Origin: a virus | Length of the DNA stretch: 28,909 nt | Strand: one strand, 5' to 3' | IMG/VR virus record: IMGVR_UViG_3300035698_016379 | Coordinates: 1-28,909 of that record | Shown: positions 2,035 through 23,436 of the stretch, one piece after another | How the letters are laid out: each line of letters begins with the position of its first letter | How positions within the stretch are numbered: the first letter of the stretch is position 1 | Notes under the pieces: generated by a model | The model's input: the letters and a program-made list of their open reading frames with translations, nothing else | What the model was told of the DNA's origin: nothing | Database searches by the model: none | Program-made: the position numbers and the translations under genes

Positions 2035-3498
2035 TTAATGCGCTAGCTGTAATGGGGTTACTGCCGTACCATTTCGCGTTATTTTGATTTGCTCTGCAAT
2101 CGCTTGATCGTAGTCGTGCGCGCAGCTGAAATTGTACTGGCTGCCGACTATATCCATGGCGCCTTGTCTTTCTTGCTGGTAAGCCTGATGTCTCATTGCT
2201 CTGATTCGCCCAGCTTCTTGCTTTGCCCGGCTCGTAGGTAGCGCGTCATGTGCATTCCTTGCATCTGCTTGCTCTGCGGTCTCACCTGGTCTGGCTTTTC
2301 TGCCTGGCTTAGGTTTTAGCGACTCTCTTTTCCTGGCATTAATTATGCGCCTTCTCGCTTCAAACTCTGTCTCATTCCCTTGTGCCAAGCGCCTGAGATC
2401 TTTGGGCGTTATAGCCTCCATGTCCTTCTTGGTGTTGTATGAACCGACAAGGTAGCCAATGGGGTTAGCTAGAACCACCTTATCTTTTAGAGCCTTGCTT
2501 AGTACTGCGTTGAACAGACTCATGCGCTCCTCTGAATCCTCGTACCTTCCCTGCTTAGCAATGAATTTATCGGCCTCTTCCTTTTCTACACCCGCTGAAA
2601 GCAAATTAAACAAGAGTCCTGGGTGGGGTGGCTCGTGGGTAATGCCGGCAGGCTTATCCACAGGCACGTCCTCCCTATTATCTTTGTTAGAGTTATTCAT
2701 ACTTGAACCCTGAAAGGGTGAAAGAATAGATGGTGTCCGGTTTTTGGGTTCGCGGTGTCCGGTTTTTGATGAAAAGCAGGGTTTGGCGCGGTTCTGGATG
2801 GTTTTATCCACAATCTGAGAGTAGGCAGCTTTACCCAGCATCGTCAGTGTAACCTCAACAGTTGACCATTTGGCGCCCATCTTCTTCTGCTTGGTCTTGC
2901 TGATTAGGTCCCTGGCGCTAAGGTCTGATATCGCTTCATTTGCGCGCTGCCGGCTCATAGGTTTCCAGCCATGGGCGCCAGCCATTTCCCCGATAGTAGT
3001 CTGAGTCGCGTACAGAACCCCTTTCTTGTACCTGTACTGAAAACTTCCGACAATAGAGAGGATTGCTTTGTCTCTTCGGGTCAGCTTTAGTGCGTTGCAC
3101 TGGTCAAGAAGGGCTTGGGAGAGGTAAAAGTCATCACTGAGCTCAATAACCTCGTCTATCTCATTCGATGAGAGGCTTGAATGACTTTTTAAGTTGGGTT
3201 TGCCTAGATTATGCTGATATTGTGTTGGAAAGCTGTTCCGCTTGGCGTCATCTAGTGTACAATTCTTGTGTGGCATGTTTCGGTCCTTGTTTTGAAGGAT
3301 TGGGCATGTTGCAGGTAGCATGTTTCGGTCCTTGTTATGAAGGATTGAGGCTGTTACAGGTAGCATATTTCGGTCCTTGTGTTGAAGGATTGAGGCTGTT
3401 ACAAGTGGCATGTTTCGGTCCTTGTTGTGAAGGATTGGGCATGTCGCGCGCACGCGACCAAGCCCGATCCTTTGAGGTGTTGTCAAAGGTAAAGTCAC
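2035..3498 (-). CDS. Lambda O-like replication initiator with internal origin repeats
   Basis: Up to 487 residues. About residues 120-225 (FYLSQALLDQCNALKLTRRDKAILSI and on through TTIGEMAGAHGWKPMSRQRANEAISDL) look like the winged-helix DNA-binding domain of O/replication-initiator proteins. A proline/Ser/Asn-rich linker follows, then a C-terminal part with NPIGYLVGSYN, common in phage replication proteins, and a basic tail. The longest frame starts at a GTG (3498) with no clear ribosome site. In-frame ATGs at 3411, 3366, 3321 and 3276 each follow AAGGA with 7-base spacing, because the site is part of the 45-bp repeat. The true start may be one of these (458 residues from 3411). No helicase or helicase loader is recognisable nearby, so host helicase is probably recruited. 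Confidence 0.75.
   Translation of the reverse strand: MTLPLTTPQRIGLGRVRATCPILHNKDRNMPLVTASILQHKDRNMLPVTASILHNKDRNMLPATCPILQNKDRNMPHKNCTLDDAKRNSFPTQYQHNLGKPNLKSHSSLSSNEIDEVIELSDDFYLSQALLDQCNALKLTRRDKAILSIVGSFQYRYKKGVLYATQTTIGEMAGAHGWKPMSRQRANEAISDLSARDLISKTKQKKMGAKWSTVEVTLTMLGKAAYSQIVDKTIQNRAKPCFSSKTGHREPKNRTPSILSPFQGSSMNNSNKDNREDVPVDKPAGITHEPPHPGLLFNLLSAGVEKEEADKFIAKQGRYEDSEERMSLFNAVLSKALKDKVVLANPIGYLVGSYNTKKDMEAITPKDLRRLAQGNETEFEARRRIINARKRESLKPKPGRKARPGETAEQADARNAHDALPTSRAKQEAGRIRAMRHQAYQQERQGAMDIVGSQYNFSCAHDYDQAIAEQIKITRNGTAVTPLQLAH
3274..3450. repeat. Four 45-bp direct repeats (iteron-like, probable origin)
   Basis: Units begin at 3274, 3319, 3364 and 3409, the last slightly shorter. Core shared by all four: TTTCGGTCCTTGT then GAAGGATTG. 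The period is 45 bases (15 codons), so the Rep frame stays open and reads a repeat containing KDRNM. Placement inside the initiator gene resembles lambda, where origin iterons lie within gene O. The origin role is inferred. Confidence 0.8.
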
Positions 3499-3617
3499 TT
3501 GGGAACTAACAGGAGCTTGCCGGCTTCTCTAGTTCAGCTCAAAACGATAAGGTAGGCAGGATGCCTTCTTTATCTCTTAAACTAGCGCATTCGCGCATAT
3601 CTAAGACTTCATGAATT

Positions 3618-3638
3618 CTCGCTAAACTTGTTAGCGAG
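3618..3638. promoter_or_regulatory. Perfect inverted repeat, candidate operator or RNA hairpin
   Basis: CTCGCTAA (3618-3625) and TTAGCGAG (3631-3638) are perfect 8-bp arms around a 5-base spacer. It lies about 120 bases before the longest Rep start in the presumed leader. A 21-bp operator-like dyad or a leader hairpin are both possible. No T-tract follows, so it is not an intrinsic terminator. Confidence 0.45.
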
Positions 3639-3692: not shown

Positions 3693-3753
3693 TATGACCT
3701 ACGACCAAACACTGTGCAAAACCACAGGTCTTTTATGACCTACCACCAAACAC
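3693..3753. repeat. Pair of 20-bp direct repeats upstream of rep
   Basis: TATGACCTACGACCAAACAC (3693-3712) and TATGACCTACCACCAAACAC (3734-3753) match at 19 of 20 bases and are 41 bases apart, about four helical turns. AGGTC at 3726-3730 forms a small dyad with the second copy, and an inverted AGGTCAT occurs at 3870-3876. They could be initiator or regulator binding sites. Confidence 0.6.
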
Positions 3754-3768
3754 CAGTCTTACGCGCAT

Positions 3769-3791
3769 AAAAAAGCCCCAATAAAGGGGCT
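3769..3791 (-). terminator. Intrinsic terminator after the SSB gene
   Basis: On the minus strand AGCCCC (3791-3786), a 6-base loop, and GGGGCT (3779-3774) are followed by a run of T. It lies 131 bases past the SSB stop and would end the RHH-SSB transcript. Confidence 0.85.
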
Positions 3792-9903: not shown

Positions 9904-12156
9904 TTAAGACCTCGTTCCGATAAGGGTCACCTTTAAGCCAGACCCCGTCAGAGTTGATCCCACCTGGTCTATGTCCACTGTTATCTCTGCGTCATCTGCA
10001 AGCGCAGAATCAGAAATGACAGGGGCCGTCGCAGCCGTAGTTGACGTTTTCTCAGAATCATCGATAGTTATCTTTGTGCTCAATATTGTAGAACCAGACT
10101 CATTGATATCAACCGTTACTGTTGCGCCGGTGGGGGCGCTTCGAACACTTGCACGAACTTCTGTAAGAGTGACAGCTGTTGGCATTCTAAACGTCACTTT
10201 CGCAGTGCCCACCGAGAGATCTGATTCTTCATTGCTTGCGGCAATCGTCATCTCGAAAGGAATAGCGGCAAAAGAAGGTGCAGATCCTGCCCCGTTGCTT
10301 GTCAAAACATGACCGCTTGTCCCTGCTGAAACAACATCAGGAACCCCCAACGCGCTCCAGGTTATGAGCTCTCCTGCGGTTGAGTTCGCCAGGCTTGATA
10401 CGGGGACATTGCTAAGGGTATTAGAATCAACATCTATGGATTTGTTGGTTAAGGTGTCTGTTGTTGCTTGACCTACCAGGGTATCGGTAGCAGACGGCAA
10501 AGTCAGAGTAACATTAGCAGTGCTTGCAGGACCGGCCAAAGTGGCTCCGTTAGTACCATTGTCAGTCCCCTCTAAAAACTTAAATCGTGCTGACGTGGTC
10601 GTTGTCTCGGATGTGTAGCCAGAAGCCAGTTCGGTCAGGTCTTCATCATATGCCTGAACATCGCTTCCGATTGTCAGACCAAGTGAAGCTCTAGCCGTAG
10701 CGCCTGTCTCAGCAACCCAGTTCGCTCCATCTCCTACAATAATATTGCTGTCCGTGACGGCAAGGCCGGCAAGGTCCGTTAATCGAGCGCTTGATGCCTG
10801 AACATCCGTTCCAATCGTTAGGCCAAGAGAGGTTCTGGCAGTAGAACCAGACTCGGCAACCCAGTTTGCACCGTCACCTACGATGATATTACTGTCTGTG
10901 ACCGCGAGGCCGGCGATGTCTGATAGTCGAGCGCTTGATGCCTGAACATCCGTTCCAATCGTCAGTCCAAGAGAGGTTCTAGCGGTGGCGCCAGACTCAG
11001 CTACCCAGTTCGCTCCATCTCCTACAATAATATTGCTATCAGTAACGGCAAGGCCTGCAATATCCGATAGTCGAGCGCTAGATCCCTGATACGTTCCAGT
11101 GGTCGGCGTCAAATCAATGGCAGAATCAGGCATTGTTATCGTGCGAGTCGTTGCTGTCGATATTGCAGAAACTTCAAACGCCAACTCTTTTGTTGCATCG
11201 CCGTTGTCCTGGATTCTAAAAGTAGAGTCGTCAAACTCGGTCACGTCAGCGGCAAGGTCAGCGATGGATTGTGCTGTAACCGTTGCGAATGAGTCCGCGT
11301 CATCTGAATCTTGAATGAGCACCTTGTCTGCTGCTGCCACCGTCGCGGCCGGAATCGTCGCGCCTGAAATCAAGTTGTCTACTGCTGCACTTTTCGTTGA
11401 AGCGCCTGTGCCACCATCGGCAACGGCGACATCAGTGCCGCTTGGGGCGTAATAATCTGTGCCCTGAGATGCAATTCCGACGGTTCCCACGGATGCGGCG
11501 GTTGTGTTCTTCATGATGCCGGTGGCTAAACTGCCTAGAACTTGCGCATTTGGCAGCAGAGCTTCAGCCGTTCCCACAATATAATCTGCTTCATTGAGAA
11601 CAAGCCCTTGAATCGTGCTTACCAAAACTTTCGTGATGTCATCGGGAGAGTCTCCAGCGTTGCCTCTTCCAATCCATATTTCATTATTGTCGAGCAACGG
11701 CACCTTAACATTGTCTTGTCGATACGTCGGAGATATGCGCTCTGAGCGATTATAGCCTACGCTGAGCTCTTGAGCTTCGGTTGAAATCTGCTTGTCATAC
11801 ATGACGTTGTCGTTAAAATCGTTGTTTAAATCAGACTTTTTGAGCGTCACAGACTGGTCATAAATTGCGGAGCGGTCGATAGCTTTGTCGCCCACTACTG
11901 TAATTATGTCGCCGGTCACGGCGCCGGTGACTAAAACAATCGTGCCGCCGGACGCCGAATTTTCTCCTGTGACTGTGTAGTGAGTTGTTAGCGTCAGCAG
12001 GTCGTCAGCATCGGACGCATCAGAGCCGGCTATTCGTTGATAAACTTTGAGGTCGCCATCGGCTTTGATGGGGAAAGTGTAGCTAAAAGTCGTCTGTAGA
12101 TTCGTTGCTACGTACTGTACCCGGGTCGGTACACTGTTGATTGCTATGTTAGCCAT
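9904..12156 (-). CDS. Tail fiber protein with T7 gp17-like N-terminus
   Basis: 750 residues. Residues about 1-150 match the virion-attachment domain of T7-type fibers: VQYVATNLQTTFSYTFPI, DGDLKVY, THYTVTGEN, TGDIITVVGDKAIDRSAIYD. A long shaft follows with common fiber phrases (DGGTGAST, LTNKSIDVDSNTLSNV) and three 48-residue repeats at about 357-500. The C-terminus (about 650-750) is a separate beta-rich domain. The start codon overlaps the stop of the upstream ejection-protein gene by one base. The fiber should attach to the nozzle and reach the cell receptor, perhaps with the glycine-rich protein at its tip. Confidence 0.85.
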   Translation of the reverse strand: MANIAINSVPTRVQYVATNLQTTFSYTFPIKADGDLKVYQRIAGSDASDADDLLTLTTHYTVTGENSASGGTIVLVTGAVTGDIITVVGDKAIDRSAIYDQSVTLKKSDLNNDFNDNVMYDKQISTEAQELSVGYNRSERISPTYRQDNVKVPLLDNNEIWIGRGNAGDSPDDITKVLVSTIQGLVLNEADYIVGTAEALLPNAQVLGSLATGIMKNTTAASVGTVGIASQGTDYYAPSGTDVAVADGGTGASTKSAAVDNLISGATIPAATVAAADKVLIQDSDDADSFATVTAQSIADLAADVTEFDDSTFRIQDNGDATKELAFEVSAISTATTRTITMPDSAIDLTPTTGTYQGSSARLSDIAGLAVTDSNIIVGDGANWVAESGATARTSLGLTIGTDVQASSARLSDIAGLAVTDSNIIVGDGANWVAESGSTARTSLGLTIGTDVQASSARLTDLAGLAVTDSNIIVGDGANWVAETGATARASLGLTIGSDVQAYDEDLTELASGYTSETTTTSARFKFLEGTDNGTNGATLAGPASTANVTLTLPSATDTLVGQATTDTLTNKSIDVDSNTLSNVPVSSLANSTAGELITWSALGVPDVVSAGTSGHVLTSNGAGSAPSFAAIPFEMTIAASNEESDLSVGTAKVTFRMPTAVTLTEVRASVRSAPTGATVTVDINESGSTILSTKITIDDSEKTSTTAATAPVISDSALADDAEITVDIDQVGSTLTGSGLKVTLIGTRS
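10653..11084. repeat. Three 144-bp tandem repeats in the fiber gene
   Basis: Units begin at 10653, 10797 and 10941, each 144 bases (48 codons). The encoded unit contains ARLSDIAGLAVTDSNIIVGD, then GANWVAESGATAR and SLGLTIGTDVQA. Copies differ at scattered bases. They form part of the fiber shaft and could change in number by recombination. Confidence 0.85.
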
Positions 12157-22365: not shown

Positions 22366-23436
22366 TTAAGCTACTGTAGTAACAGTGCTATACGACACAT
22401 GAAGATATGTTGTGCTGTTTCCAGACGCGAACGCACCAGTATCGTTTGATATCGTAATCGACTTATTAATAAAATCTGAAGTAGCACCAGACGACATGTC
22501 TCCGAGAAGCTGAAAGAAGAAATCATTAACAACGCTGTTCAATCTGCTCGCTGGTTTCGTCTCTGATGCACTTTCTCCCGAAAGCGCAGCGCCCGCCCCG
22601 TATTGCAGCCCAAAAGTTCCGCCGCCTGAAAATGAAGTGCCGCCAAAATCGTTCTCGAACACTACATTCTTTACAATATGCACTGTATTTGCGCCACTAG
22701 CTGGGATGATCTCAACCGGAGTCGTGAACATGCCGATTATTTGGGCGGCCGACAATGATACCGTAACCGTTCTTGAAACGAGCGTTGAGAGCTCAATCTT
22801 ATCGCCAGATCCGCCTTCGATGTACGTGCCAAAAGACGTAGAAACAATCTTGTTTTCATCAACAGAGTCATCTGACATCTTAGCAAGAGTGACAGACTCG
22901 TTGGATATCTTGTCAGTAGCAACCGCATCATCCGCAATCTTAGCTTCTGTGACAGCTAAATCTGCAATCTTAGCTTCTGTGACAGCTAAATCTGCAATCT
23001 TAGCTTCTGTGACAGCTAAATCTGCAAGCTTTGCAGTAGCAACCGCATCATCTGCAATCTTAGCTTCTGTAATAGCTTCATTAGCTATTTTGTCAGTAGC
23101 AACCGCATCATCTGCAATCTTAGCTTCTGTGACAGCTAAATCTGCAAGCTTTGCAGTAGTCACCGCGCCATCTGCAATCCCGCCAGCACCCGAATAAAAC
23201 GCGGTAGTTGTTACAGACGTCGCATTCTTTAATGATGAAACAGAAAGGATGTTTGTTTCGTCTGTTCCGACAGCAAATATAAGATCGTCTTTTTCTAAAG
23301 CGAATCTCATTGCTACGAAATAATCTGCTGCTTTAATGTCTGAGATTACGTCAACAGCACTCTTATAAGACCAGAGCCTAGCTACGCCAAGCGCGCCGGA
23401 CGAAATGTTATTGAATGCATTAATATCAAAAGCCAT
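22366..23436 (-). CDS. Capsid-associated fiber protein with decapeptide repeats
   Basis: 356 residues. Residues 1-80 are homologous to the start of the 23475-24125 protein (both begin MAFDINxFNNxSSGA and keep DDLI near residue 50). Residues 87-196 are eleven decapeptides of the type [10 protein letters not shown]. The C-terminal domain again matches its neighbour ([13 protein letters not shown] against [13 protein letters not shown]). A decoration domain split by an elongated repeat shaft suggests a head fiber, or possibly a fiber on the tail neck. GGAGG precedes the ATG, and a strong terminator lies just before that ribosome site. The exact role is inferred. Confidence 0.7.
22849..23178. repeat. 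Eleven 30-bp repeats encoding decapeptides
   Basis: The DNA repeats with a 30-base period. The encoded consensus is (I/L)AD(L/D)AVTEAK. Several units are identical at the base level, so recent expansion is likely. The shape recalls repeat shafts in phage fibers. Confidence 0.85.

Follow-up and report, generated by a model that had tools for sequence, protein, structure and literature searches.

The four 45-bp repeats at 3274..3450 (minus strand), at the start of the replication initiator gene O, are best explained as a tandemly amplified translation leader of O that acts in the mRNA and is not the main origin of replication. We hold this reading at about even confidence, on the basis of the sequence, homology with the relative G002 and predicted hairpins. 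The DNA analysed, here called the window, is a 28,909-base IMG/VR virus record with a 127-base direct terminal repeat, and the genome is podovirus-like as judged by its portal (PF12236), terminase and capsid genes.

The repeat array and its predicted hairpins

The repeats, described in an earlier note as each carrying AAGGA, 7 nt and ATG on the minus strand, were confirmed in all of these respects. Tandem Repeats Finder reports 3273-3437 with a period of 45, 3.7 copies, 90% matches and a score of 265, and a repeat search of the window gave spacings of 45, 45 and 45 between the four copies. In the O sense, each repeat contains CAATCCTTCANNACAAGGACCGAAAYATGCYAC and has the arrangement TCCTT-N6-AAGGA, 7 nt, ATG. 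The AAGGA-CCGAAAY-ATG elements (7 nt between) place ATGs at 3411, 3366, 3321 and 3276, all in the frame of the open reading frame 2035-3498 (minus). With a length of 45 nt and no stop codon, the unit continues in frame into O. Chance alone would put a 45-nt unit in frame in one case of three, and the four copies, being of a single unit, provide little independent evidence for the open frame. AAGGA and TCCTT are the two arms of a palindrome, so that AAGGA is present on both strands. Exactly four sites match the dyad, ATCCTTCANNACAAGGA, with 0 mismatches (3284..3300, 3329-3345, 3374-3390 and 3419-3435, minus strand), the shuffle expectation at up to 3 mismatches being 0.83 matches. Just upstream of the array lies another inverted repeat, GTCGCGTGCGCGCGAC (3443..3458, minus). 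Elsewhere in the window, long virion-type genes contain tandem repeats in codon register, of 144 bp and of 60/30 bp (10650-11089 and 22907-23179).

As RNA, each dyad would form a 5-bp hairpin hiding the Shine-Dalgarno sequence. The TCCTT arm is predicted to pair with AAGGA at -3.5 kcal/mol in each copy, and every Shine-Dalgarno of the array is predicted to be buried because each repeat carries TCCTT-N6-AAGGA. In local folds, the unpaired probability of the Shine-Dalgarno was 0.05-0.06 at all four starts, whereas 20 other genes in which such a site could be recognised had a mean of 0.51 (range 10-91%); given that the array copies are not independent, this occlusion counts as one outlier, not four. 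The strength of the Shine-Dalgarno sequences is ordinary (-5.1 kcal/mol). A search of Rfam gave no match.

Among the four copies, 4 of the 33 core columns vary, as compared to 5 of the 12 columns of the 12-nt spacers (Fisher p=0.04). The variable core columns are the two bases at the centre of the dyad and one base on each side of the ATG; the dyad arms are invariant, and the two loop bases vary. This pattern bears on the possibility that the array is a recent slippage duplication without a selected role, in which one ATG matters, probably 3276 or 3411. Slippage generates tandem repeats, the codon differences among the copies are mostly non-synonymous, and the core would look conserved because the copies are young. 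However, the spacers have diverged more than the cores, and both dyad arms and all four pairs of Shine-Dalgarno and ATG are intact, and we regard this explanation as unlikely.

The O gene, its starts and the leaders of relatives

The gene encodes an O-type replication initiator of 413 aa (2035..3276, minus), with the frame open up to GTG 3498. Residues 52-134 match PF04492 (E=6e-4, 20.8 bits, below the curated cut-off of 28.7), and the PHROG profiles phrog_345 and phrog_678 match at 1.6e-5 and 3.1e-5, respectively. By its profile match to the O DNA-binding domain, the protein is classed, on sequence grounds, as a lambda-type O initiator. Searches with tblastn found no match even at high E-values, either for O among phages or for its DNA-binding domain among phages and plasmids, and a scan of viral contigs with O found no relative. 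Scans with VRR-NUC and additional portals revealed no further O start of the window type, and a sequence search of solved structures with the window O and lambda O gave no match. The AlphaFold models were too poor for use (pLDDT 41 for O and 38 for the domain without homologues).

The closest relative having an O gene is G002 (28,853 bp), with a portal 84% identical and a terminase 78% identical to those of the window phage. The two O proteins are very different (22% identity), and their N-termini align: MLRTNCTL...DEIVELSDEFY in G002 and MPHKNCTL...DEVIELSDDFY in the window. Because the G002 N-terminus aligns there, the conserved O start is placed after the array at the fourth ATG (3274..3276), which is most likely the main O start; G002 is the one relative that anchors this homology. 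Relative to this start, the array occupies -146 to -11. GTG 3498, the first possible start of the frame, lacks a Shine-Dalgarno sequence. Since homology also favours 3276, the view of the repeats as lying inside the initiator frame holds for the open frame and not necessarily for the main protein.

The leaders of the window and G002 are homologous (local score 64, as compared to a mean of 34.7 and a maximum of 60 in 300 shuffles). The first ATG of the array (3409..3411) matches the leader ATG of G002 (L018:1740), with 15 of 19 surrounding bases identical, and the second (3364..3366; Shine-Dalgarno -5.1 kcal/mol) and third (3319..3321) are in frame and share an identical Shine-Dalgarno. The single leader ATG of G002 lies 43 nt before the O ATG at 1697, out of frame with O, and opens an 18-codon reading frame ending inside O. 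From leader start to O start there is one interval of 43 nt in G002 and there are three in-frame intervals of 45 nt in the window. The dyad is absent from the leaders of G002 and G008. Amplification of one leader unit is the simplest history, since G002 has one interval and the window three.

These starts also bear on the possibility that the repeats are coding, O beginning at 3411 or farther up and the 15-residue repeat LPVTASILxxKDRNM serving as a functional N-terminal tail. The frame is indeed open throughout, and TASIL weakly resembles TAKIL/TAEI, a motif found N-terminally in lambda-type O proteins. Nevertheless, the homologous start is 3276, the G002 leader is out of frame with O, and second-position codon changes occur among the copies, all of which make a coding role very unlikely.

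Two more distant relatives, G008 and L025, have near-identical DNA as far as the leader and diverge there. G008 carries a 52-bp duplication (two copies) before O that includes a Shine-Dalgarno, while L025 carries three ATGCAAATGAATA-type start motifs before O, and its region L025:600-900 (minus) holds chained short reading frames that overlap one another and O, as judged from the sequence. That these leaders differ so strongly between near-identical flanks points to an instability in line with the slippage explanation. Both phages have an identical iteron-like array of four 17-bp dyads, GTGACGTAAATTGTCAC, with 20-bp spacing, located at L019:2003-2079 and the equivalent position of L025, 445-505 nt upstream of the G008 O start; these dyads are likely the iterons of the G008/L025 lineage. 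Duplicated start regions before O are hence recurrent in relatives and, in G008 and L025, are separate from the iteron-like array. The four nested translation starts proposed earlier stand at the level of sequence, as four in-frame pairs of Shine-Dalgarno and ATG with repeated or coupled start regions in G002, G008 and L025.

Upstream of O, a terminator-like hairpin follows the SSB gene (3774..3791, minus), so that a separate promoter for O probably lies downstream of the hairpin. The motif TTGGTNGTAGGTCA occurs in two copies upstream of O both in the window (3736-3749 and 3695-3708, minus) and in G002 (L018:2582 and 2088, minus). The copies sit between the terminator of the upstream genes and O, one of those in G002 after a small AlpA-like reading frame, and the motif is possibly a shared promoter or operator of the two phages. 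The intergenic region between SSB and O in the window also holds a perfect palindrome, CTCGCTAAACTTGTTAGCGAG (3617-3638). In G002, a cluster of TAACCG/CGGTTA half-sites including the palindrome TTAACCGAATTCGGTTAA lies upstream of the small AlpA-like reading frame (L018:2312-2414).

Lambda-type iterons and a candidate origin within O

The earlier note suggested that the repeats could be iterons bound by Rep, a reading that is weakened by comparison with lambda and 15 diverse lambda-type O genes (n=16). In 14 of the 16, a detectable family of 3-7 dyads lies inside the gene, at +290 to +582. The starts of these dyads are mostly 18-25 bp apart, and their centres are A-rich, with AA at fixed central positions. 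The window array resembles them in its number of dyads, four of 16 bp with inverted arms, and the dyad shares 13-14 of 18 bases with the lambda iterons, a likeness that at 14/18 beats chance (P 0.0005 in shuffles, 0.003 with the arms fixed). When the lambda iteron matrix was run over the whole window, the top four matches were the four array dyads. However, the array lies at -146 to -11 rather than inside O after the DNA-binding domain, its spacing is 45 bp, and its centres are CA, AC, TA and AA in the four copies. It also lacks a flanking AT-rich unwinding tract: the flanks are near the genome average, and the nearest mild AT-rich stretch is ~50 bp off.

These data allow, tentatively, that the four repeats are O iterons shifted to the beginning of the gene, where they would serve as origin or as autoregulatory operator and carry the ATGs along. 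Besides the likeness of the dyads and their top matrix ranks, the four copies of a 16-bp dyad share their TCC/GGA arms with the repeats of lambda and Gifsy-1. When three complete O genes were compared, only that of the window proved to have the lambda-type DNA-binding domain of PF04492, the O genes of G002 and G008 lacking it, and the domain co-occurs with the dyad only in the window phage among those compared. The exact core pattern was not found in viral contigs. A tandem dyad pattern generalised from the window matched 48 contigs among 2.9 million viral contigs; all 48 carry the same lambda/Stx-type iteron array, and the one context that was translated proved to be an O gene. Lambda was in mind when this pattern was designed, and the specificity of the pattern is therefore no independent evidence. 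A scan of GTDB with the same pattern gave one match, a glycine/proline-rich coding repeat that we took as chance. Against a transplanted set of iterons stand the position and spacing of the array, the absence of an AT-rich tract beside it, and the fact that the central bases, almost always AA in the 14 O genes, are the very ones that vary. A separate candidate site with an AT-rich flank, described below, further argues against this reading, which we consider somewhat unlikely.

This second site is in the central part of O, where a 15-bp repeat, CAAAAACCGGACACC, occurs as two perfect copies 22 bp apart (2732..2768, minus; +509 to +545 of O) that are candidate true iterons. Upstream of them, the dyad TGGATAAAACCATCCA (2795..2810, minus) shares their AAAACC core, and together with CAAACCC at ~2785 it spaces the cores ~18-22 bp apart. 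Directly after the repeats comes an AT-rich tract (2672..2716, minus; +561 to +605) with 33% GC, at the 4th percentile of the genome. The mid-O array hence consists of two perfect copies, which are not dyads, and two degenerate AAAACC-type cores, one of which is a dyad. Its 15-bp repeat is the only one in the genome at 16-30 bp spacing out of codon register, and it is not a protein repeat, since 22 bp is not a multiple of three. In lambda, the origin is placed centrally within O and consists of iterons and, after them, an AT-rich tract (PMC7466680). The mid-O site of the window has this layout, with direct repeats about two helical turns apart inside O and then an AT-rich tract. No switch of the kind expected at an origin is seen in the GC skew at O. 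Because the layout is that of lambda, at the place where 14 of the 16 O genes have their iterons, we prefer 2672-2810 to the 45-bp array as the candidate origin, with moderate confidence.

Proposed relay of starts and its relation to known systems

The preferred reading, an amplified leader, would run as follows. In the ancestor, a short leader start preceded the O start by ~43-45 nt and both starts had a Shine-Dalgarno of their own, a layout still kept in G002. In the window lineage, the leader interval was presumably multiplied from one copy to three. The TCCTT-AAGGA pairing would close each start, which would be opened mainly by a ribosome passing from the unit above. Such a relay of coupled starts would yield O from ATG 3276 together with forms extended by 15, 30 or 45 residues, and replication would more likely begin at the lambda-like array within O. 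We infer start use, coupling, regulation and the site of the origin.

The array may also have a role as DNA, with O binding to it for autoregulation. The RNA hairpin and the DNA dyad are one property of the sequence, and the two roles are therefore inseparable from one genome. A single element that is both an O-bound DNA site and an RNA switch, with four hairpin-closed in-frame starts whose N-terminal forms are set by repeat number and O binding, is highly doubtful. The notion that repeat number alters the origin as well as the protein is not new: in lambdoid phages, the six iterons of Stx phages, as compared to lambda's four, add 13 residues to O (PMC7466680). For the array itself, the origin half of that notion is weakened.

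As compared to the lambda-type O genes of lambda, P22, HK97, Gifsy-1 and Stx phages, the window shares the PF04492 O family, four dyads in the O sense with TCC..GGA arms and, with the Stx phages, a repeat number that also changes the protein (PMC7466680). It differs in that its repeats lie upstream of the conserved start, 45 bp apart and with the central AA lost, that each carries a Shine-Dalgarno and an ATG, and that a separate array lies in the middle of O. In P22-type phages, a small reading frame of the DUF2740 type likewise adjoins and overlaps the start of gene 18/O, suiting translational coupling. That frame is single and of ~48 codons, whereas the leader of G002 has 18 codons and the window has a repeated unit that lacks stops and is joined in frame to O. 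In IncFII plasmids (tap-repA), synthesis of the initiator is coupled to an upstream short reading frame encoding a leader peptide; there is one leader in IncFII and several repeated in-frame starts in the window. The initiator TrfA of RK2 has nested in-frame starts. Longer and shorter initiator forms arise from nested in-frame starts in R6K pi and pIGRK RepR/RepR' as well (PMC6854812). Unlike those of the window, the starts of these three systems are not on repeated DNA.

No paper on phage start sites duplicated in tandem turned up in a literature search requiring all of several terms, a result that speaks weakly for novelty. The combination of features appears new, while its separate kinds, namely intragenic iterons, nested starts and overlapping small reading frames, are already known. 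If the starts are not used, the array warns against taking every set of repeats at an initiator gene for its iterons. If they are used, the array shows how a leader can be multiplied into protein, and it would act as a natural relay in which translation starts are coupled and copy number tunes the dose of the initiator and its N-terminus.
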